A stretch of 64,000 bases of DNA from Eutreptiella sp. 'Long Island Sound 2002' (Eukaryota > Euglenozoa > Euglenophyceae > Eutreptiales > Eutreptiaceae), in NCBI GenBank assembly GCA_964036045.1, contig OZ038392.1, positions 17,319,612 to 17,383,611 of the forward strand. Reading direction: 5' to 3'. The notes beneath the pieces are model-generated. The model was given only the letters and a program-made list of their open reading frames with translations, was not told the DNA's origin and did no database searches. Position 1 is the first letter of the stretch. Each line of letters starts with the position of its first letter. This document shows positions 30,704 to 45,668 of the stretch, piece after piece. A program made the translations under genes and the position numbers.

Positions 30704-31028
30704 CGATTTCATGTATTGATAATTGTTTACTGATTTCTCGAATTTTCTTTCTGAGTGTCTCTATTTTTGATAGGGATGTAACAGCTTGTTTTTTGAACCA
30801 GCTACTGCTGGTTGACTTGGTTGGACTCTGGGGGACATGCCATCGTGTTGCAGTATTGATTTGGCGTGCTGATGATGCTTCGTGTGTTCGTGTTTATCTT
30901 GGCCATGGTTTTTTTTTGGGGATTTTCGTAAACTGGTACTGGGGAAAAATATTTGTGGCTGGCGAGTCCCAAAAACATCCTGAGGAGTTATTATCAAATG
31001 AAACCAAAGTATTACTGGTTTTATTACA
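30704..31028. repeat. Direct duplication, copy 2 (~325 bp)
   Basis: Counterpart of 28545-28873. This copy is contiguous with the repetitive viral-fibre-like sequence on its right, so it probably keeps the original context. Confidence 0.9.
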
Positions 31029-31612
31029 AGTTCCAAATGTAACTTTGCCGGCGCCGACGAAGGCTATACTAGGGGCATTATTAGGTTGAATCTGGTTTAC
31101 ACGCAGTGTAGTGACCGACAAGGGATCGAGTACAGTATTGTTGGATGTGCTTATGTCGACAGTCGTACTAGCACTACCATTGTACGTGGCTTTCTGTTGC
31201 CCGTCGACTCTTATTTCGAGCAAATGTGCCACACCGGTTGCTGTGGTTGCTAAAGTTGCATGGTCGGCATTTGTTGCTGTGGTTGCTGCAGTTTCATGGT
31301 CGGCATTTGTTGCTGTGGTTGCATGGCCAGCAGTTGTTGCCGTGGCTGCTGTAGTTGCATGGTTAGCATTTGTTGTCGTGGCTGTTGTAGTTGCATGGTC
31401 AGCATTTGTTGCTGTGGTTGCATGGCCAGCAGTTGTTGCCGTGGCTGTTGTAGTTGCATGGTCAGCATTTGGTGCTGTAGTTGCATGGAGAGCATTTGTT
31501 GCTGTTGTTGCTGCAGTTGTATGGTCAGCAGTTGTTGCAGTACCACTGAGATTGCCCGTAATATTCCCTGTGACTGTCAGCCCGCCCACGACCTTCACGG
31601 CACTGGTGTTAC
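30894..31612 (-). pseudogene. Fragment resembling a viral tail-fibre / adhesin protein
   Basis: The open minus-strand frame has no ATG. It starts with GLTVTGNITGNLSGTATTAD, then Ala/Thr/Asn repeats with His at 9- or 12-residue spacing (HATTATNAD, HATTTATATTAG), then LLEIRVDGQQKATYNGSAST, VLDPLSVTTLRVNQIQ and a tail with KTSNTLVSFDNNSSG. Xtvt-G-nitGnlsGtA followed by degenerate ATNAxxAT repeats and a LxV.GQ...(F/Y)xGSAs segment is typical of fibre proteins of phages and large DNA viruses. The frame ends at an A-run (about 30908-30916); beyond it another frame carries a coiled coil. There is no start codon, and it joins the transposase exon at 31613, so it is probably a captured or decayed fragment. 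Confidence 0.5.
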
Positions 31613-32070
31613 CGTGTCTCCCGGCCCACGGAAACACATGCCAAATGCTTTTGCAGCAGTGGCCGATCCTTTTTTCTTTTTGGATATCTCACGGACCACT
31701 CGTTGAATCGCGTGAAATAAGTCCAAACACAAATGGGCATCCGGGAAAAATTGTTTCCACACCAAGACCTCACCACAACATCTATCGAAGTGAACTTCCT
31801 CCACACATATGTTTGGCCGTTGAGCTATCTCCTCAAGGATGTCAGCCGGAATGGAGGCATCCTCAAGGAATCTCCAAGCCAAGACCATGCCTAGCTCATT
31901 GAGAACAAAGTATGCACCGTCGAAAAGTTTTTCAAAGTGATGGTCCACTTTGACCGTACACTTCCTGGCAATGTTGAATGTGTGGTCGGCTGATAGTTTA
32001 TGTGCCCCAAGAGACTTGAGGCAAGCATCATAGAAACCCTTTCCCCGAGCAGCCTCTTTGGCAATCATTG
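31613..32070 (-). pseudogene. C-terminal exon of a DDE-like transposase (same gene as 40193-40635)
   Basis: Begins after a plausible acceptor (TTGTTGATAG) at 32071 and ends at a possible donor CACG|GTAACA at 31613. Encodes about 150 residues including CVEEVHFDRCCGEVLVW and LCLDLFHAIQRVVREISK. An acidic residue, then LDLFHA(I/V)QR, then MxFRxxGD is the signature I associate with catalytic domains of a family of large eukaryotic transposases that carry an N-terminal Cys-rich domain like the one at 40193-40635. The remaining pieces are far apart because of later insertions. The coding text gives way to fibre-like sequence at the putative donor. Confidence 0.5.
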
Positions 32071-32522: not shown

Positions 32523-33278
32523 AGGTCATCTTGTGTGATTTCGAGGGTTGTGGCCTCCTGGGAGGCTCCAGGATGTCAGAATGCACCGTAATTTGTTGCA
32601 CGGAGCTGTTTTACAAAAGGTCTGAGGCTCCCAGGGCACAAAAACGCGGTCCACTTGCAACTCTGAAGCAGAAAAAGGCACTTTTTCTACCTTTTTACAA
32701 AAAAAAAGGTCCAGGTGTGTGACTTTGCTGGGTTGTGGGCACCTGGGAGACTCAAACTTTAAAGAATGCAAAGTCATTTACTGTACGGAGGCACCTTAAA
32801 AAAGTGCTGAGGCTCCCAGGTCTCAAAAACTTGTTACACTTGCAACTCTGAAGCAGAAAAAGGCACTTTTTCTACTTTTTTACAAAAAAAAGGTCCAGGT
32901 GTGTCACTTTGCCGGGTTGTGGGCACATGGGAGACTCAGAGTTTAAAGAATGTACAGTCATTTACTGTACGGAGGCACCTTAAAAAATTGCCGAGGCTCC
33001 CAGGTCTCAAAAATGCGGTGCACTTGCAACTCTGAAGCAGAAAAAGGCACTTTTTCTACTTTTTTACAAAAAAAAGGTCCAGGTGTGTCACTTTGCTGGG
33101 TTGTAGGCACCTGGGAGACTCAGAGTTTAAAGAATGTACAGTCATTTACTGTACGGAGCCACCTTACAAAAGTGCTGAGGCTCCAAGGTCTCAAAAATGC
33201 GGTGCACTTGCAACTTTGAAGCAGAAAAAGGCACTTTTTCTACTTTTTTACAAAAAAAAGGTCCAGGTGTGTCACTTT
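32523..33278. repeat. 184-bp satellite, left part (about 4 units)
   Basis: Units recur at 184-bp steps (TTTGCTGGGTTGTGGGCACC-like starts near 32724, 32908 and 33092; a diverged unit precedes). Each contains arms CACCTGGGAG and CTCCCAGGT that could form a hairpin, and a TTTTTTACAAAAAAAA tract. The array is interrupted at 33278 by the transposon and resumes in phase at 39486. Confidence 0.92.
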
Positions 33279-33293
33279 TGTAACTACGAAGCC
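33279..33293 (+). repeat. Left terminal inverted repeat of the palindrome-array transposon
   Basis: TGTAACTACGAAGCC, the exact reverse complement of 39471-39485; followed 6 bp later by ACATTCGCCAACT. Confidence 0.95.
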
Positions 33294-33520
33294 AAGAGAC
33301 ATTCGCCAACTTGCTTCGGAATGCAGCCAAATCATGGCGGGTGTCTATTATGTTGTTACACTGGCTACCTAGGGATTTTTTCCTCCTTTTTGGTGTAAAT
33401 GGAAACTTCTTACCCTGAAAAAACCCGGGTTTCATGCCCCTCTCGTGCTGAAAACACTCCTACACGGTACAAAAGTCCCAAAGTTGGCTTCCCGGGCCTG
33501 GGCTCGCGCAAATTCACAAG

Positions 33521-33638
33521 TTGGCGCGCCAAGTCGCAAGTTGGCGCGCCAAGTCCGGACTTGGCGCGCGCCAACTGGGAAGTTGGCGCGCGCCAAGTCC
33601 GGACTTGGCGCGCCAACTTGCGACTTGGCGCGCGCCAA
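33521..33638. repeat. Palindrome array 1 (6 cores)
   Basis: Six cores TTGGCGCGCCAA or TTGGCGCGCGCCAA separated by 8-bp spacers GTCGCAAG, GTCCGGAC, CTGGGAAG, GTCCGGAC, CTTGCGAC. Spacers 1 and 5 are reverse complements and spacers 2 and 4 are the same palindrome, so the array is itself a large inverted repeat centred on spacer 3. It lies between the left end and the 3' end of the transposase-like gene. Confidence 0.95.
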
Positions 33639-33822
33639 ATGTCCCCCCACCGATCAAACCATCGACTTGCATACCATTGTTGTCACTAGAAATTCCATCC
33701 CTCACCTGCCCTTGCACACTTGGCACGAAGAAAGCATTGTTCCATCTTTTTTTGATTAATGTGCAAAAGACTGCGAATGTGCAAGAAGCTGTCAAATCAA
33801 TCATATAAATCATATATAGAGG

Positions 33823-34850
33823 TCACATGCCTTGTTCAGCCTGGACGAAGACCCCCTTATTCTCTATGTACCCCCTTTGCTTCGTCCACGACGACTCCCA
33901 AACCGAAATTTTTTTATTATATAACCCCCAGTCCAGATTATCTGAGCGGATCACTTCCCCCCACCCCTTCCGCGTGCGATCCCCCTTGCCCCCCTTCACC
34001 CGCACTCTGGCCCCCCGCAGTCTGGACACCCGGCCGCCTTTACTTCCACCTCGAAAGCTGCGCTTTGAGATTTCACATTTCAGGGCTTTGTGCCGCCCCT
34101 CTCCTTTGAAGGCGGCAAAAATGGCAATGTGCCCCCACCTGCGGGCCCATCCCAACAGGTGGTCAATCCACAGATGGGCCCACAGGGTGACGTTCATTTC
34201 ACAGGCCTTATGGGCCTCCTTTTCAATTCTGTTCGCAGAATTTTCATGTCGGGCAACTGCAATGGTCCGGATGCACGAAGGAGGCCTGCCAGAGCTTTGT
34301 CCCGTCGAAGGAGATGCCCACCCACACGTTGTCCGTCAGGAACGTGGGGCCGTCACGGTGCCACATCACCTATGCCAGAAAACAGGCCGTGTGTAACGGG
34401 TCACCGTGAACGGTCGCCGGGAAACGCTTTGGTGCAGGGTGAAAATACCTGCAGCTTCTGCCACAGATTGCATGCGGCCCCAAAAATGTCATTGTCCTCG
34501 TCCGTCTGAAAATGGACCTCCGTGACACGGGGGGCGGACAATGCCTTTCGCACCTGCATCAGGGTTCCCCATGGGCACTTCCATTGGCTGTGTGCCCGGC
34601 TGTACTGCAGTTTGCGGAAGCTGTCGCCATTTTTGCGGCTCTCCCACAGAATGGCCGCGGCCAACAGCTCCAAATCGGGAGTGGGGGGTTTGCTCTCCCC
34701 GCAAACGAGGTGGATGCGGCGGCGGCCGGGTTTGACGTGTACTTCGCAATGTGGCCCCAAAATCTCCCCCACGACTTGGCGAAGGCGTGCCAGCCGCGCG
34801 CGCCTGTCGCGGTAGTTTGAGGGCGCCAGCTGCTCAAAGCGCCGCTGCAT
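33823..34850 (-). CDS. Transposase-like protein, two exons, one frameshift
   Basis: ATG at 34850 (MQRRFEQLAPSNYRDRRARL). Exon 1 ends at CAG|GTATTT (34449/34448); a 79-nt intron ends at CATAG (34370); phase 0. Exon 2 reads VMWHRDGPTFLTDNVWVGI..., then a single-base shift near 34262 is needed to reach the frame with ANRIEKEAHKACEMNVTLW, HLWIDHLLGWARRWGHIAIF and FKGEGRHKALKCEI; it ends in a stop at 33823. HxWxDH followed by FxxEGxHxxLK, a Gly-rich stretch and DN...D...GW resembles the C-terminal half of some eukaryotic cut-and-paste transposases; this is from memory of the motif, not a search. It is the only transposase candidate in this element. Confidence 0.5.
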
Positions 34851-34959
34851 GGTGCACAAACAAAGATCTGCGGCACGTGAGGACGTGGCAGGCGGGTTGG
34901 ATCATGCAACGGAACGTTATTGCACGTTTGCACACAGATGGCACACAGTTGGCAGGCAG

Positions 34960-35145
34960 TTGGCGCGCGCCAATTCAGGATTTGGCGCGCGCCAACTCGT
35001 CAGTTGGCGCGCGCCAAGTCCTGAGTTGGCGCGCGCCAAGTGGCAAGTTGGCGCGCCAACTTCCCATTAGGCGCGCGCCAACTCCCCTGTTGGCGCACGC
35101 CAAATCAGGATTTGGCGCGCCACATTACCACTTGGCGCGCGCCAA
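34960..35145. repeat. Palindrome array 2 (9 cores)
   Basis: Nine cores, mostly TTGGCGCGCGCCAA, with 8-bp spacers TTCAGGAT, CTCGTCAG, GTCCTGAG, GTGGCAAG, CTTCCCAT, CTCCCCTG, ATCAGGAT and one irregular spacer. Two cores have one substitution (TAGG..., ...GCACGCC...). It lies between the stop of the upstream gene (35169) and the start of the transposase-like gene (34850). Confidence 0.95.
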
Positions 35146-35168
35146 AACCATGCCCAGCCAGTGCCTGC

Positions 35169-38100
35169 TCATTTCTTCGACCGCTTGCTGCCCTGACTCT
35201 GACTCCCCTCGCTCTCTTCCACCCGCCTGCGCTTGGGGTCAAGCAGGTGCGCAACCGGGTGCTTGTCCAGCAGGCCCTTCAGCTCCGTGCGGGTGGCCTC
35301 TTTGACCCCCATGTTGCTGAGTGCAGAGTGCAACTCCACCGCCGCCGCCTGCAGGTACAGCACATGCTGCCCTTGGTCGAGGTCGGCACTACCCTCTGCC
35401 CCCCCCGCAACTGCACGCACCTGCGCCGTGGCGGTCACCTGCTGCTGCAACTCCCCCCTCTGCTTTTCCCACCCCTTCTCCCGCCGCTCCCACAAGGCGC
35501 GCTCACCGGTGAGCGCGTCCTGTGCCGTCTTGCGGGCGGCCTCCGCCGCCTTCAGCTGCTCGCGCAGCAGCTTGTTCTCCGCCTCCAGGCGGAGAATCTC
35601 CGCCTTCTCCCGTGCCCCCCCCCCGTCTCCCGCTGCCTGCGCTGCCTGTGGTGCCTCCCGGGGGGTGGTCGTGGGGCGAGGGCGCCTGGAGCCCCTAGCT
35701 TGCTGCTCCGTGCGGCCCTTGCTCTGCAGGGAGGGGTCCCCAGACACGTCAGATGCGGCCCTGCCCCCCTTCTCCCCCTTCGGCCCTTTCCCCACGAGCT
35801 GCTTCTGGAAGCGGAGCAGAAACGCCTGCGTTGCCTCCTTCAAGTGGGGGGCGGGGGCAATGGCCCGCACGTCGCTCCACTCACACTGCTTCCACCTCTG
35901 CAGCTGTCCCAGAGCGTCAATGCTGCAGAGGAGGAGCCGGTTGTGCGTGGAGGGGGGGCGCAACTGCACAAAGGGCACAACGGAGACAACCCATGGTTGC
36001 ACACCCCCCTTCCCCTGCACCACTGCCCAGAACGGGCACTCCACCACCCTATTCTGTCCCGAACCCCGCCGACTCACCTGCGCCTGGAACAGGCGGCTGA
36101 TGATCGTCCCTCCCCCATCGACGACGCCCACCGCCGTCGCCTGGGCGGACGTCACCTTCAGGAACTTGTCGGGGCTGTGCAAGGCGTCCCCGAAGTCCGC
36201 CGGTTCCGGGACCGCCGGAACGTCCCAATCCACCACCACGTCCACATCCACCTCCAACCCCTCCTGCTGCTCCTGCCGCTGCTCCTGCCGCTACTCCTGC
36301 CGCTGCTCCTGCCGCTGCTCCTGCGGCTGCCCCTCCACCTCCTCCGCCCCGGCCGGCACGGGCACCGGACGCGAGTCCACTTCCAATTGAAAATTGGCGT
36401 AGTGGATGGGGACCTGCAAATGCGCAACAACACAAGCATAAAACAATGCACACAACGACACCACTGCAACAGCGAAGACAAATTGAAAACCAGCCACAGA
36501 ACAACGTTTCCGATAAAACCCAACGAATTAAATTCAGGCGCCAAAACGGCACTTGGCGCGCGCCAACTAGCTATTTGGCGCGCCAAAACTTGACTTGGCG
36601 CGCGCCAAAACTGGACTTGGCGCACGCCAACCGAACACTTGGCGCACCAACCGGTGACTTGGCGCGCGCCAAGATGGAAGTTGGCGCGCGCCAAGATGGA
36701 AGTTGGCGCGCGCCAACTGCGAAGTTGGCGCGCCAATCTGCTATTTGGCGCGCGCCAAATTCGTGTCACGTGTGACAACATCGCATGCATGCAAGGCACC
36801 GCGCGGGCACACCTTCTCGCTGCAGGAGCAGATGGTGCGGCGGGCCTTGTCCACGCGGACGAGGTCCAACATCTCGGCGTCCTGGGAGCTCAGGAGCGGG
36901 GTGAAGTGGGCCATGGCCATCCAGGCCATGCGGCCGGCCCCTGGCTCCCGCACGAACGCAGCGCCCAGTGCGGCGAACGAGTACACCACCGTGCCGGCCG
37001 TGCAGCGCACGCGGCAGAAGTCGGTGGCCTCGGGGGGGGGAGGCCACCACTGGTGGATGTGCGGAGTGAGGCAGGCATCCGCTCTGGCCGCCTCGGCGGT
37101 GGGCCCCACGTGCGCGTGGTCGGTGGGGGTCAGAAACAGACCCGCAGACACCCCCTCTTGCAGGAGGAGGACGTCCCCCATGTAGGTCACCGGGGGGTCC
37201 AACGGCTGCTCAGCCTGCGACACGAAGCAGACTGGCTGGGGGATCGCGTCGGGAGTGAGGAAGTCCTCCTCTGCCGGGGGGGGGGGGCGGCCGGCCTCTC
37301 CTCCGCTTCCGCCGGCGCCTCCGCATCCGCCGGCGCCTCCGCATCCGCTGGCGCCGCCGGCATCTCCTCCTCCTCCCGTGCCGCACTCTGTGGGGGGGGG
37401 GCGGCATCCGCGTCAGCCGGCGCGGCCGGCCTCTCCTCCGCATCCGCCGGCGCCTCCGGCATGTCCACCTCGTGGGGGGCAGGCACGGGATCCTGGGGCC
37501 GGTACCTGTACGGGTCGGACCCATATGGGAGGCACAGAGGGGACCCGACCGCAGCCCCCTCGGCCAGAAGCTCGGAGGGCATCACCGGAACACTGTTCAT
37601 CAGCTCCGTTACACTCTCCGGCTCTACGGTCAGCATGCGCGACCGGTAGCCGACGGGTGCAAACGGGATGAACAGTATCCGGCCAGGCCCGCCCGCACCG
37701 CGGTGGATCACCGTCCCGCGGAGGAGCGTCACGCTGCGAAGCGGTTGGATAACAATATCCCACCGATGCGCAGCGTGATAGCCCCCCTGCGTGCCCGGGC
37801 ACACCTGGAGGGACTTGGACGGGGGAGAGGTGGTGAGGGGGATGAACACGACCATGCACTGCACTGACTGTTTCACAGACAGTGCAAAATCGCGGTGGGG
37901 GATCTGGAAAACCTCCCAGGGTTCTGCCTCCCACCGCTCGATGATCTTGGGGCACAAGGCCTCAAGTCCCTGCAGCGGTGGGAGGGAGAACCCCAGCAGG
38001 GCCAGAACAGCCTGCCAGAGGTCGTCTGGGAGCCAGTGGGGGACGCTGGAGACCGTCGTCTGATAGCGCCCCCCACCTTCCCCGGGGGCCTGGAGGTCCA

Positions 38101-39034
38101 CCTCCTCGAGCATCGACGGGTTGAGTACCACCGTGGCGAGCTCCGCCAGTCTGGCCCACAGATCCTCGGGGATGATGCGGTCATACTGGCGGTAGCCCGC
38201 CGCGGCAAAACCCTCCTCCGTGACGATGGGGGGGTTGGGGATGTCGTGGTTGGCGACGGGGTAGGAGTTGTGGAAGGAGGGGTGGGGGCAACCCATGCCA
38301 AGCATGGTGAAGGGGGCGTCGGTGCTGTAGAGGGTGGGGTGGGTGATGTCGGGGATGTGGGTGCGCAGGCGACGGTTGGTGGAGAACTCCGTGGGAGCTA
38401 CTACATCCCACGCCTGCACCTTCACCGTCTGGTACCGCACGACGGCGTCAGTGGCCGTGCGGTGCGTCCAGCCACTTTTTTTGACTGGATCCACCCACAG
38501 CCACTGCTCCTCGGGGTCGAGACCGTGAGGCGGCATCTCCTGCAGGTCGAGAACGTTAACGAACTCTTTTGACGCTGCAGCAGTGCACAGCTTCAGGGTC
38601 TTGTTGAAGGCCTCAAGGGTGACTTGAGAAAGCTTCAACTCGACCGCGAGCGTCGTGGGGTACCGGCCCATCACGGCACAGCAGAACCTGCTAAGAACCC
38701 CCCTGGTCAGGGCGAAGTTAACACGGGTGGCGTCAATTCGCCAGACCAAGTGGGGATTGCCCGGCTGGTCCCACTTGCCGAAGAGGGCGGCCTCCAGGGG
38801 TTCGCGGAGGGGGGGGAGCTGGGGGAAGGATTCGGCGTCCGGGGAGGTGAGGGTGTAGGGGATGGGAAAATAGCCCCCGGGGAAGTGCTCGGAGCCCACG
38901 TTGGCGATGTGGGCATCGACCATCGGCTGCACCTCGGGGTTAGGTGGTGCAGCGGGGGCTGGGGCTGGGGCAGACGTGGGGTCGGTGACTGTCACCTTCT
39001 TCCCCTTGCCCTTCTTGGGTTGCTTTGGAGGCAT
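35169..39034 (-). CDS. Large two-exon protein with 2OG-oxygenase-like signature and C-terminal coiled coil
   Basis: ATG at 39034 (MPPKQPKKGKGKK, basic). Exon 1 runs to AAG|GTGTGC at 36813/36812; a 399-nt intron (containing array 3) ends TTTGCAG at 36414; exon 2 runs 36413-35169 and ends TGA. Residues 375-460 read VFQIPHRDFALSV ... LLRGTVIHRGAGGPGRILFI: H380-x-D382, H444, R452, the spacing and context of a double-stranded beta-helix Fe(II)/2-oxoglutarate oxygenase (PhyH- or TET/JBP-like). A low-complexity EAPADAEERPAA tract follows, then a C12 run (complement of 37276-37287) where a 1-base shift restores the frame AEEDFLTPDAIPQ, then a Cys-rich patch (TICSCSEK). Exon 2 has RQEQ repeats with an in-frame TAG at 36293-36291, a VQPWVVSVVPFVQL core, a coiled coil (LRLEAENKLLREQLKAAEAA) and a basic end (KRSKK). 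Function unproven. Confidence 0.55.
36553..36758. repeat. Palindrome array 3 (10 cores, intronic)
   Basis: Ten cores TTGGCGCGC(GC)CAA with 8-bp spacers (CTAGCTAT, AACTTGAC, AACTGGAC, CCGAACAC, CCGGTGAC, GATGGAAG twice, CTGCGAAG, TCTGCTAT). Two cores carry G-to-A changes (GCGCACC). It lies within the inferred intron 36812-36414. Confidence 0.95.
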
Positions 39035-39104
39035 GATAACGTGAAATGCCTAGAAGGGAAAGGGAATGCATAAAGGGTGCAAAAGAAGAGGAAGAATGGG
39101 GCAC

Positions 39105-39255
39105 TTGGCGCGCGCCAAAACCGGAGTTGGCGCGCGCCAACTCAAGAGTTGGCGCGCCAAGTTGGCGCGCCAACTTGGCAGTTGGCGCGCCAACTCTTGA
39201 GTTGGCGCGCGCCAACTACCAAGTTGGCGCGCCAACTACCAAGTTGGCGCGCCAA
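39105..39255. repeat. Palindrome array 4 (8 cores, upstream of the oxygenase-like gene)
   Basis: Eight cores; spacers AACCGGAG, CTCAAGAG, G (one base), CTTGGCAG, CTCTTGAG, CTACCAAG, CTACCAAG. CTCAAGAG and CTCTTGAG are reverse complements, giving another nested inverted arrangement. It lies 70 bp upstream of the ATG at 39034 and 215 bp from the right TIR. Confidence 0.95.
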
Positions 39256-39470
39256 CTTTGACTTGGCTTCCAAAAAGTTCGCTTCGACCCAAAAAACCCA
39301 CATATTGCATCATAACAACAAAGCAACGCAACCAGAAGCTGTAAAATATCAATAGTTCCTCACGTTTCATGCACAAGGCGTAGCAACAACACAGTGCACA
39401 AGTACAAGCAAGTTGAATGCTCTCGACATGGAGTTGACCAGGAGTTGGCGAATGTACAGTATCTGGGGTG

Positions 39471-39485
39471 GGCTTCGTAGTTACA
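39471..39485 (-). repeat. Right terminal inverted repeat of the palindrome-array transposon
   Basis: GGCTTCGTAGTTACA, the exact reverse complement of the left TIR; the subterminal motif ACATTCGCCAACT (on the minus strand) is also present nearby. Confidence 0.95.
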
Positions 39486-39780
39486 TTGCTGGGTTGTGGG
39501 CACCTGGAAGACTCAAACTTTAAAGAATGCACAGTCGTTTATTGTACGGAGGCACCTTAAAAAAGTGCTGAGGCTCCCAGGTCTCAAGAAGTTGTTACAC
39601 TTGCAACTCTGAAGCAGAAAAAGGCACTTTTTCTACTTTTTTACAAAAAAAAGGTCCAGGTGTGTCACTTTGCTGGGTTGTGGGCACCTGGGAGACTCAG
39701 AGTTTAAAGAATGCACAGTCGTTTATTGTACGGAGGCACCTTAAAAAAGTGCTGAGGCTCCCAGGTCTCAAGAAGTTGTT
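39486..39780. repeat. 184-bp satellite, right part (about 1.6 units)
   Basis: Continues the array interrupted at 33278 (TTGCTGGGTTGTGGGCACCTGG at 39486, next unit near 39670) and stops at about 39780. Confidence 0.92.
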
Positions 39781-40192: not shown

Positions 40193-40635
40193 CTACTTCA
40201 TTGTACCTCCCCTCGTACAAAGAAGCTTGGCTGTTGCACACATGCTTACACCCTTTGAAAGTCCTGTCAAGACAAGTCGAAGGACTTGCTTGTGCAAAGC
40301 ACTTTTTTGAAATAATATGAAAGGGAATGCCCTTTGTAGCTTGGGTGTCAATTGACTAGTTATATCCCAAGAATGATATATTTTACCACAACCTACCTCT
40401 TCACCGTTGATCTTATGCCGACATGCATAGCCTCTCATGAGAGGAATGCAATTCTCCTCTAAGAGGCATGCAATCCTTTGGTGCCACTTATGGACACGCA
40501 AAGGTTTTCCACATGAGCAAGACAAGTGAAACTTGTATTGTGTCAAGGGATCCCACACAAAAAAGGCAGGCTTGCCATTGGCACAGGTTGTCACCATCCT
40601 TCCCCAAAGGGTCTGCGTGTTCTTGATGAAATCCA
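40193..40635 (-). pseudogene. Cys-rich N-terminal exon of the split transposase gene
   Basis: Reads DFIKNTQTLWGRMVTTC, FHLSCSCGKPLRVHKWHQR, YACRHKINGEEVGCGKIYHSWD and LQRAFPFILFQKSALHKQV. CxCGKPLRxHKW...YxCRxK...C...SWD...FPxxL is the zinc-type domain that precedes DDE domains in a family of large eukaryotic transposases. The frame appears to start at MCSTTCLSDL, but those residues come from the inserted LTR; the genuine upstream codons continue across the insertion at 52508 onward. The catalytic exon is presumably 32070-31613. Confidence 0.55.
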
Positions 40636-41252
40636 AGTCAGATAGACAGGTCGTAGAACACATGTATATGCAAGTGTAAGAAGGAATGAGGTATAGTGGA
40701 CATACATAATAGGCGGCTCAGGAGAGATACATAGAACACAGTCACATGTGTTATGAGTAATGTGGTAAACCTGAGACTATGAATACCTTGGGTGTTCAAT
40801 GGTGTGCTTTTCTGGGAATCAGGGAACCCAATGCATAGTGTATGGTACCACACTGACTGGAGTGAGGTAGATATAGGATGAGTGGGAGAAGATAAGGCAA
40901 ACCCATACATGCATAGTAAAATAAGCATACGCTGTGTGTGTATAGTACAGTGACCGGTGCGTCTTGAATAATGGTGAATATGTGTTGTACACAGTGGTAC
41001 AGCATATCCAGACGGGTGCGCGTGCGCGTCAGTGCCATTGAAGTGTTGCAGAAATTGATGTCAGCATATGCAAGGGACACTGTCGTTATGTGTTTCTGTG
41101 CTACACAGCCTTTGTTAAAAGAATGATCTTGCGATTGCTTTCTTGCCTACTCTGGTCATGGGTCCGGAGGGTATTGTTCATGTTTTGTTTTGAGTTTAAA
41201 ATTTTTAAGGCATGATAAAGCAAATAGGGTTGTTAGAGCCCATAATCTAACT
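40636..41252 (+). repeat. 5' LTR of the non-coding LTR element
   Basis: 617 bp, AGTCAGATAG ... AATCTAACT. The termini form an imperfect inverted repeat AGTCAGA/TCTAACT instead of TG...CA. Confidence 0.92.
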
Positions 41253-43653: not shown

Positions 43654-45393
43654 CTACTCGCTGTCACTCCCAGCCATATTGGGCTGGGAGTCACCATCCG
43701 AGTCGTCATCGGACCTGGGCGCACACAAAGAGCATTGCCAGCGGCTGTCGCTCTGCTCGATGTAGGGGCCATCACGCCCCCAATCGAGCCCAAAGCAACC
43801 ATCATGGATCCAGCAGTCACATGCATCACACTGGGCCCAATTCTCAGTCTTGCCGGTGCCCACATCCTGGCCGCAGGGGCACGTGGTGCCGTCATCCCAC
43901 ATGTCGGGCTCGGGCGCCTTCCGCTTGGTGCCGCGGCGGGGTCGGGATGCCTGCGTGGCAGCCCGCTCCTCCTCTTTCTTCCGCTTCGCCTCCGCACGTT
44001 CCGCGTCGCGTCGCTGTTTGTCCTCCGCTGCCTTTTGTTTCTTTTCCTCTGCGGCCCGTTTGCGTTCCTCTTGTTTCTGTTTCCTGTCCTCCTCCTCTTT
44101 CCTCTTTTCGTCCCGTTTCTGCTCGCGCTCTCTCTTGCGTCGCTCCGCGTCTACCTTTTTCTGTTCTTTCTCATCCACCTCTACCTGCAGGTCCTGCACA
44201 ACCTCATCACCGGTCAGCTCTCCCCCTTGCACCAGCACGATGTCCAGGCGGCGGGGCTTCTTGTACCCGGGGGCGTCCGGTTTCTTCTTCCACAGGCGCT
44301 GACGCACCTTCAACCCCGGGGATACCTGAGTGCCCGCCGCCGTCATACCTGGTGGCGATGCGCCAACGCTGGTGCTGGCGCTTGAGCTCCGATTGGACAC
44401 AGCAGGGGTGGCAGGGGCACGGGGCGAAGAGGCGCTGGGAGAGGAAGGTACAGGCGCAGGCATGTCGGGGTCCCATTCCACCACGACGCGGACTTCCCGA
44501 ACGGGCCGCTCGGCTGCGGCAACCGCCAACTCCTCGCGGATTGCCGCGTCCTGTGCATCATCTTCGGCCTTCTGCATGGCCTTGCGGTTGCGATACCTAT
44601 CCAGCTTTTCGCTAATCTTTGGCCATGCAGGGGGCCAAAGACCCAGGTCGGCAAACCCGTTCCTAAGGTTATTCTCGGTAAGCCCTTTGTTGTATACCTC
44701 ACCAAACTCCTTCACGAATCGATCCATGTCCGATTTATAGCTATTCATATGCCCATCGAACACCTTTACGAACACCTGTTTCATGGGCCGGAAGCAATGG
44801 GTGTCCAACGGGCAAAGGAAATGCGTCGTATGCGGAGGAAGAAGGAACAGGTGGATGTGGTGCTCTCGGGCAAAGCGGATTGCCTCCAAGTCCACACGAC
44901 TCCGGTGCCCGTCTGTAAGGACAAGCACAGGCCGTGCTGCAGTCGGGCGCAAGCACGGAATCAAGACACTCTTCATATACTCCCGAAACCCGTCGTGCGT
45001 GTTGAATGCCTTGGGCACCCGGATGGCATATCCATGTTCCCCCAGGTTGCCCATCACGTTTCCCCCCCGGAGGAGGTAGCACGGCGGCAGTTGGACCCCG
45101 TCGGCCGTACCACCAGCCAGCACGGAGATCCACTCCCGCTCCTCCCGCTCCCCCCGCCCGGCCTTCTTCCCCTTGGTCCCCACAACCTTGCGACGGTTGC
45201 CATAACCGATGAAGGTACCAGCTTCATCGATAATGGCAACCTGGTCCTTGGATGTGATTCCCAATTTCCCTATGGTGTCTACGTATTTTTCGAACCAACG
45301 CTTGACGCTCTCCGGATTCTCCGCACGCAACCGCTCAAGCTTGGTGGCCTCTTTCATACGGTAGGCCACCTTAGGCCACCGTTTCACATACCT
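43654..45393 (-). CDS. pogo-type DDE transposase with C-terminal PHD finger
   Basis: Large exon. A plausible acceptor GCGCAG|GTATGTG at 45394 gives the start YVKRWPKVAYRMKEATK, so there is no own ATG at the beginning. DDE catalytic residues, counted from the GTG at 45387: D54 (VAIIDEAGTF), D159 (LVLTDGHRSR) and D195 (PPHTTHFLCPLD), a DD35D spacing typical of pogo/Tigger transposases. Then NNLRNGFADLGLWPP, a long charged Lys/Glu/Arg helix, and a PHD finger CPCGQD...CDACDCWIHDGC...WQCSLC. It ends in TAG at 43654. The N-terminal HTH/CENP-B-like domain was not found. It lies antisense inside the LTR element, probably as a nested insertion; I found no convincing TIRs. Confidence 0.85.
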   Translation of the reverse strand, partial: RYVKRWPKVAYRMKEATKLERLRAENPESVKRWFEKYVDTIGKLGITSKDQVAIIDEAGTFIGYGNRRKVVGTKGKKAGRGEREEREWISVLAGGTADGVQLPPCYLLRGGNVMGNLGEHGYAIRVPKAFNTHDGFREYMKSVLIPCLRPTAARPVLVLTDGHRSRVDLEAIRFAREHHIHLFLLPPHTTHFLCPLDTHCFRPMKQVFVKVFDGHMNSYKSDMDRFVKEFGEVYNKGLTENNLRNGFADLGLWPPAWPKISEKLDRYRNRKAMQKAEDDAQDAAIREELAVAAAERPVREVRVVVEWDPDMPAPVPSSPSASSPRAPATPAVSNRSSSASTSVGASPPGMTAAGTQVSPGLKVRQRLWKKKPDAPGYKKPRRLDIVLVQGGELTGDEVVQDLQVEVDEKEQKKVDAERRKREREQKRDEKRKEEEDRKQKQEERKRAAEEKKQKAAEDKQRRDAERAEAKRKKEEERAATQASRPRRGTKRKAPEPDMWDDGTTCPCGQDVGTGKTENWAQCDACDCWIHDGCFGLDWGRDGPYIEQSDSRWQCSLCAPRSDDDSDGDSQPNMAGSDSE

Positions 45394-45668
45394 GCGCCAC
45401 CATGACCAAGAAGCCGTGAAAGGCCGGTTTCTTCTTCGTTATCCGACTCTTCAACGTCACTGGCAGAAAACAGCAGTCCCTCTGAACTGCTCGACTGCTC
45501 CCTGCTCAAACCCACACTACTCTCTATTTCATAGAGTAGAGCAGCCGCAAAAGGATCCTTTTGAGCCAACCGGAGACTTGTGGAATCTGTCCACTTGAAG
45601 GACAAAGAAAACTGTCCTTCATCAAGACCAGGGTGGCTGTTTTCCATGGACACCGTTGAGAAAAACAA
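45394..45668 (-). CDS. Possible upstream exon of the pogo/PHD gene
   Basis: Open frame with acidic, Ser-rich composition (LSREQSSSSEGLLFSASDVE, ESDNEEETGLSRLL) ending near CAG|GTATGT at 45394/45393. That junction fits either a donor here or the acceptor of the next exon, so the relation to the transposase is unclear. No domain recognised. Confidence 0.25.

Follow-up and report, generated by a model that had tools for sequence, protein, structure and literature searches.

Arrays of outward-facing half-sites with a constant 8-bp gap in a DNA transposon of Eutreptiella

To our knowledge, few systems are known in which a transposon writes its own anti-silencing code. VANDAL transposons are Mutator-like elements, and their VANC proteins are DUF1985 proteins. 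In Arabidopsis, the VANDAL/VANC system is described, in excerpts of two papers, as combining short family-specific motifs, tandem arrays in noncoding regions, and extra element proteins (PMC5735166, PMC10398659). CACTA elements carry subterminal arrays bound by a companion protein other than the transposase, with motifs that diverge between subfamilies (excerpt of PMC2613891), and activation of Spm by TnpA correlates with DNA demethylation (excerpt of PMC10398659). In fungi, some DNA transposons carry a TET/JBP cargo gene that is thought to counter silencing (excerpt of PMC12730594), and in Brassicaceae, transposons have spread E2F-binding words (excerpt of PMC12595863). A literature search on palindromic anti-silencing arrays returned nothing, which is not a claim of absence from print.

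The arrays described here lie in a 64,000-nt stretch of the genome of Eutreptiella sp. 'Long Island Sound 2002' (the window, in whose coordinates array positions are given), within an element that has three genes, A, B, and C. The likeness to VANDAL is that three families in this genome carry arrays of different half-sites in the gaps between genes, plus extra proteins. Unlike the arrays here, the VANC21 motif YAGTATTAY is not palindromic, and the excerpted texts do not mention a fixed two-turn geometry for VANC (PMC5735166, PMC10398659). Products A, B, and C have no Pfam match to the VANC family (DUF1985) or to a Mutator-like transposase, in searches where HMMER filters drop most matches with E above about 0.1.

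As in En/Spm (CACTA), there are subterminal arrays: the distance to the nearer element end is 242 bp for array 1 and 230 bp for array 4. The element departs from CACTA in its termini, which read TGTAAC..., and in its target duplication of 2 bp rather than 3 bp (five of six flank pairs); it departs from En/Spm in having arrays upstream of internal genes as well and a strict everted spacing of 8 bp. Neither exon of gene C in a fuller copy (L013) has a Pfam match to a Tnp2-type transposase domain. Unlike the Brassicaceae E2F sites, the words here match the E2F consensus only in part, with the full consensus mostly absent, and they differ between families. Compared with the fungal TET/JBP elements, the oxygenase likeness of product A is a weak sequence resemblance, and the excerpted account of those elements does not mention motif arrays (PMC12730594).

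The transposon and the geometry of its arrays

The element that carries the arrays is a DNA transposon: it has terminal inverted repeats, a target duplication, and many dispersed copies. The whole copy in the window spans 6207 bp (33279..39485, no strand assigned). Its left terminal inverted repeat, TGTAACTACGAAGCC (33279..33293, plus strand), and its right one (39471..39485, minus strand) match perfectly over 15 bp. The insertion is flanked by a TT duplication, and its uninterrupted counterpart is a neighbouring repeat near 33072 (flanks compared by eye). The duplications in four other copies are TG, AT, TG, and TA, whereas the flanks of the L006/L007 pair do not match. The insertion target is a 295-bp repeat with 184-bp spacing, seen in the window at 32535-33381 and 39480-39774.

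A search with the left 242 bp of the element gave 643 first-look candidates. Of these, 40 were scored, and all 40 are listed as 100% identical, with 29 sharing the top score, which indicates that the element family moved recently. The window copy itself is non-autonomous, judging from the loss of about 0.8 kb of gene C exon 2 and from the end of gene A, which lies in another frame.

All three genes are on the minus strand and each has an array ahead of it. Array 1 (33521..33638) has 6 cores near the left end and is largely a 53-bp perfect inverted repeat. Array 2 (34960..35145) has 9 cores upstream of gene C, array 3 (36553..36758) has 10 cores upstream of gene B, and array 4 (39105..39255), towards the right end, has 8 cores ahead of gene A; none of the arrays is assigned a strand. 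An earlier note on this DNA had counted 33 cores in four arrays, and both the number and the positions hold. The cores comprise 17 exact 14-mers, 11 exact 12-mers, and 5 with one mismatch (28 of 33 exact), while dinucleotide-preserving shuffles of the window contain a mean of 0.01 (12-mer) and 0.00 (14-mer) cores.

The same words are abundant in the 2.28 Gb (2205 contigs) covered by the genome-wide counts. Counts are 4684 for the 14-bp core and 3751 for the 12-bp core, compared with 1 and 241 for the respective reversed controls. The pair CGCCAA-N8-TTGGCG occurs 7312 times against 95 for the reversed control, whereas its N9 version occurs 122 times against 504. A scan of viral contigs for exact 14-bp core pairs at N8 found none.

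Spacer length is nearly invariant, as the earlier note had claimed: 28 of 29 internal spacers in the window are 8 bp, and the sole odd one, in array 4 at 39161, is 1 bp. The preferred bases that it reported inside the spacer are also present, with A at base 7 in 27/28 and T at base 2 in 20/28 window spacers by hand count. Across the window and the other sampled loci, base 7 is A in 319/340 and base 2 is T in 294/340 of the 8-bp spacers, a set drawn from 351 gaps shorter than 60 bp with cores of up to 3 mismatches admitted; by our reading, 35 of the 340 adjoin a degenerate leftmost core of array 1. Exact cores in the sampled loci are 12 bp (n=150) or 14 bp (n=182) long, and none is 10, 16, or 18 bp. 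Centre-to-centre steps are thus 20, 21, or 22 bp, in agreement with the proposed repeat of 20-22 bp. Mean steps in arrays 1 to 4 are 21.0, 21.5, 21.3, and 20.7 bp (the last with the 1-bp spacer taken as 8), a period of 20.7-21.5 bp that is close to the suggested two helical turns.

The constant distance in these arrays is the 8 bp between outward-facing half-sites. In the window element, 27 everted pairs CGCCAA...TTGGCG were counted, all but one of them with a gap of 8 (26/27), and inward-facing pairs have gaps of 0 (n=11), 2 (n=19), or 13 (n=1), counting half-site gaps below 20 bp; mononucleotide shuffles gave none at gap 8 or 2. The fixed unit thus spans the spacer, since the everted gap is nearly constant and the core interior measures 0 or 2 bp. 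The earlier note had extended the core by the preferred spacer bases to an 18-bp palindrome. The conservation of spacer bases 2 and 7 stands, but the palindrome is probably not a rigid binding unit, because its half-sites are 0 or 2 bp apart while the everted gap is fixed at 8 bp in three families.

Encoded proteins

Gene A has a main open frame of 615 aa (37187..39034, minus strand) with no Pfam match and a weak resemblance to 2OG-oxygenase motifs. Its C-terminal part, in a different frame in the window copy (36741..37412, minus strand), encodes a Cys-rich end common to related families, a homology tested on the counterpart P0031. The oxygenase-like motifs of product A in the window copy are HRD and HRGAGG. 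The signature of 2OG-Fe(II) oxygenases is HxD...H in a double-stranded beta-helix fold. The first motif is not constant: P0001 has HRE, P0008 HHD, and P0013 HRN, and the TTAGCG/TTGACG family retains neither. Comparison of product A with oxygenase profiles is weak (probability 0.3%, E 0.23). Gene B is an open frame with a coiled coil (35169..36290, minus strand) and a sub-threshold Leu_zip match (E 0.11).

Gene C resembles a transposase gene in position, size, and D/D/E-like and C..C motifs seen by eye, without a match to a known family. Its exon 1 region (34401..34901, minus strand) is an open frame for the N-terminal part of the protein, and the exon 2 remnant (33823..34335, minus strand) is roughly 0.8 kb shorter than in L013, a size estimated from frame lengths. 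In the fuller L013 copy, gene C has two exons and the motifs DGTK, ADTKAQ, CWLCG, LHGVHR, and FKGEGRH, which are largely kept in relatives.

None of the products A, B, and C reaches the Pfam cut-off. Below it, the best matches are DciA (E 0.035) for window gene C exon 1 and Leu_zip (E 0.038) for gene B of L013, with matches requested up to E 1 or 5. An NCBIfam search with the three products returned nothing, and PDB searches with A and C gave meaningless matches (E 0.93 and 1.1) or none. Predicted models are of very low confidence, with a mean pLDDT of 35 for product A and 44 for the transposase-like protein, and are unusable at that quality.

Other frames lie outside the element in the window. 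A DDE_1 transposase frame (43654-45438, minus strand, E 2.5e-8), which we take to be pogo-like, has a sub-threshold C-terminal PHD match. A frame at 40193-40717 (minus strand) contains DUF6729 (E 2.8e-7). A further frame at 30894-31688 (minus strand) encodes a long repeated ADHATT-like peptide, fibre-like by eye, with a sub-threshold Plasmodium_HRP match only.

Conservation among copies and related families

Arrays recur in the other copies of the element. On contig C1, 11 of 12 regions have arrays of two or more cores and one (L008) has a lone core, in a set picked from the core listing and so blind to array-less copies. All four arrays are present in L005, L016, and the L012/L013 pair, and one to two are present in the stretch sampled for the others. 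Array 1 is found in 30 of 30 left-end copies, the window among them, with 1-7 cores (up to 2 mismatches allowed) and a single core in L027; these copies were picked by the sequence adjoining array 1 and cannot give a fair count of copies without arrays. Array length varies by whole units, which indicates that units are truly gained and lost.

Divergence from the window was measured at twelve loci, of which ten were aligned (L009 and L010 gave no 300-bp alignment); L008, L012, L014, and the short left-end loci L017-L046 were left out. Cores differ at 41/2346 positions (1.75%) and the other spacer bases at 93/910 (10.2%), in line with the expectation of the earlier note that cores change more slowly than spacers; changes private to the window are counted in each comparison. 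Spacer bases 2 and 7 behave like the core (5/306, 1.6%), and together with it they differ at 1.7%. By comparison, the 150-bp flanks differ at 272/6971 (3.9%), coding sequence at 516/15555 (3.3%), and the remainder at 136/5126 (2.7%). Core divergence lies below flank divergence in 10 of 10 copies, with small counts in the closest copies (L013: core 5/320, free spacer 3/126). Two copies with unit turnover, L005 and L011, supply 62 of the 93 free-spacer differences, and their units are reshuffled, so some aligned spacers are not orthologous. This share indicates that homogenisation contributes, as well as selection, to the contrast between cores and spacers.

CpG changes amount to 22/446 in the cores, 18 of the 22 being of the deamination type, and to 326/2180 elsewhere in the element, 157 of them of that type, in a tally that counts changes private to the window copy repeatedly. 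In the window, 3 of the 5 imperfect cores carry a CpG to CpA change. The cores are conserved, yet they are not evidently free of methylation on a permanent basis, since most core CpG changes are of the deamination type.

A search with the transposase found relatives at 44-50% identity. Two more families were read in the same genome, the P0048-type (L050-L053) and the P0052-type (L054-L057). Termini are alike in the three families (TGTAACTACGAAG, with changes), transposases are homologous, and half-sites differ. A stretch within 2 mismatches of the window terminal repeat is present in 6 of 8 loci (L050, L052-L056) and absent from L051 and L057. The half-site is TTTGCG in the P0048-type and TTAGCG or TTGACG in the P0052-type, and both types have arrays at two places, the gap ahead of the transposase and the 3' part of the element. 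Counting gaps below 20 bp, the everted gap is 8 in 10/10 and the inverted gap 2 in 7/7 P0048-type pairs at four loci, and the corresponding P0052-type figures at L055-L057 are 15/15 and 18/18; L054 is excluded because a different element fills that gap, and loci inside one family are copies rather than independent evidence. ACCGGTC/GACCGGT palindromes cluster 3' of the P0048-type transposase at L051:3190-3900 and rank among the commonest 7-mers in one of four copies.

Among the three families, the transposases are 40-51% identical in exon 2 and 35-41% in exon 1. Gene A is 27.5% identical to its P0052-type counterpart over 269 aa (E 1e-22) and shares its Cys-rich end with the P0048-type (27% over 113 aa), so that its homology spans all three families. 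Gene B of L013 is 34% identical to a P0048-type protein over 101 aa, a homology seen between the window type and the P0048-type. On these figures, the companion proteins A (27%) and B (34%) seem to evolve faster than the transposase in its catalytic part, a contrast that is clear for exon 2 only, exon 1 (35-41%) being nearer to A and B. One protein, P0050, probably comes from another assembly, since it is just 46% identical to its best match listed in this genome.

A different element inside the L012/L013 copy carries arrays of TTATCG half-sites with an inverted gap of 2 and an everted gap of 5. The N8 rule is therefore not universal to such arrays, and the finding suggests that CG-rich half-site arrays are not restricted to one transposon group here. 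The inserted element spans L012:6207-9901 and L013:1-1306 and has other genes. Its 724-aa protein has sub-threshold matches to PhyH (E 0.012) and 2OG-FeII_Oxy_3 (E 0.069), and its third frame (L013:184-795) is oxygenase-like by eye, without a Pfam match.

A candidate operator system and its alternatives

The main reading, to which we give a probability of roughly 60%, is that the arrays are operator-like sites for a dimeric protein encoded by the element, serving activation or anti-silencing and perhaps transposition too. The most likely binder of the everted pair CGCCAAnTnnnnAnTTGGCG, with its gap fixed at 8 bp, would be a dimer of product A or of product B, the coiled-coil protein. Neighbouring dimers would meet at the core with a step of about 21 bp, all on the same side of the helix, and may fill the array cooperatively. 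Binding before each gene and near both ends would keep the element open and expressed, through activation or by clearing silencing marks, and might assist in building the transposition complex as well. By analogy with TnpA of maize Spm and VANC of Arabidopsis (PMC10398659, PMC5735166, PMC2613891), such binding would probably activate the element or lift its silencing, and it may contribute to transposition. A swapped half-site with the geometry kept, as seen in the related families, is what co-evolution of the protein and its sites would produce. The constant ruler with a changing word, together with the seemingly faster divergence of the companion proteins relative to the catalytic part of the transposase, favours a binder made by the element over one supplied by the host. 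Some observations weigh against the main reading: products A and C match no known family, most core CpG changes are of the deamination type, the TTATCG element has an everted gap of 5, and near-identical left ends hold anywhere from 1 to 7 array-1 cores, so that mobility in trans does not seem to depend strictly on a long array 1.

It is unlikely that the arrays are transposase-binding or subterminal sites that act only in assembly of the transposition complex, like the subterminal repeats of other DNA transposons. The closeness of arrays 1 and 4 to the ends would suit such a role, and excerpted text on CACTA describes subterminal arrays, variable among related families, as presumed binding sites of TNPA-like proteins (PMC2613891), but arrays 2 and 3 are internal and stand upstream of genes. 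The lone array-1 core of L027 also speaks against this role, though the copy need not have moved in that state. An improbable alternative makes the arrays sites for a host transcription factor, with E2F/DP as the best candidate, so that the element would be expressed in dividing cells. The E2F consensus is TTTSSCGC, most of which TTGGCGC fits, but the third T of TTT is rare: spacer base 8 is T in 35/340. The words TTTGCG and TTAGCG/TTGACG of the related families replace bases that the consensus requires while N8 stays, which would be hard for a fixed host factor. The infrequent T before TTGGCG and these altered bases led us to reject E2F as the main explanation, even though transposons have amplified E2F sites in Brassicaceae (excerpt of PMC12595863).

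There is an equally small chance that the arrays are a by-product of recombination, in which GC-rich palindromic units grow and homogenise by unequal exchange or gene conversion without a bound protein. The turnover of entire units (1-7 cores), the inverted repeat of 53 bp within array 1, reverse-complement spacers common to different units, and free spacers that differ more than the flanks all fit such a process. It leaves unexplained why the 8-bp gap stays constant while spacer bases change, why bases 2 and 7 are conserved, and why gap 8 recurs in families with other half-sites, for which pure exchange gives no reason. The earlier note had offered selection for dimer binding or array growth by gene conversion; the slow cores and spacer bases 2 and 7 are in keeping with the former and unit turnover with the latter, but the rigid 18-bp palindrome drops out of the proposal.

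An operator-like array bound by a companion protein would also be compatible with a wider proposal, which we hold tentatively and at somewhat less than even odds. The three families may form an undescribed group of DNA transposons with a TnpA/VANC-like system, in which a conserved ruler (everted 8 bp, about 21 bp per dimer) is combined with a half-site that is re-coded in each family together with its companion protein, giving each family a private channel for activation or anti-silencing. With a geometry this regular, and a word this clearly exchanged between related families within one genome, sites and protein could be matched and put to a direct test. Such matching would show how a selfish element alters its recognition code yet keeps its function.
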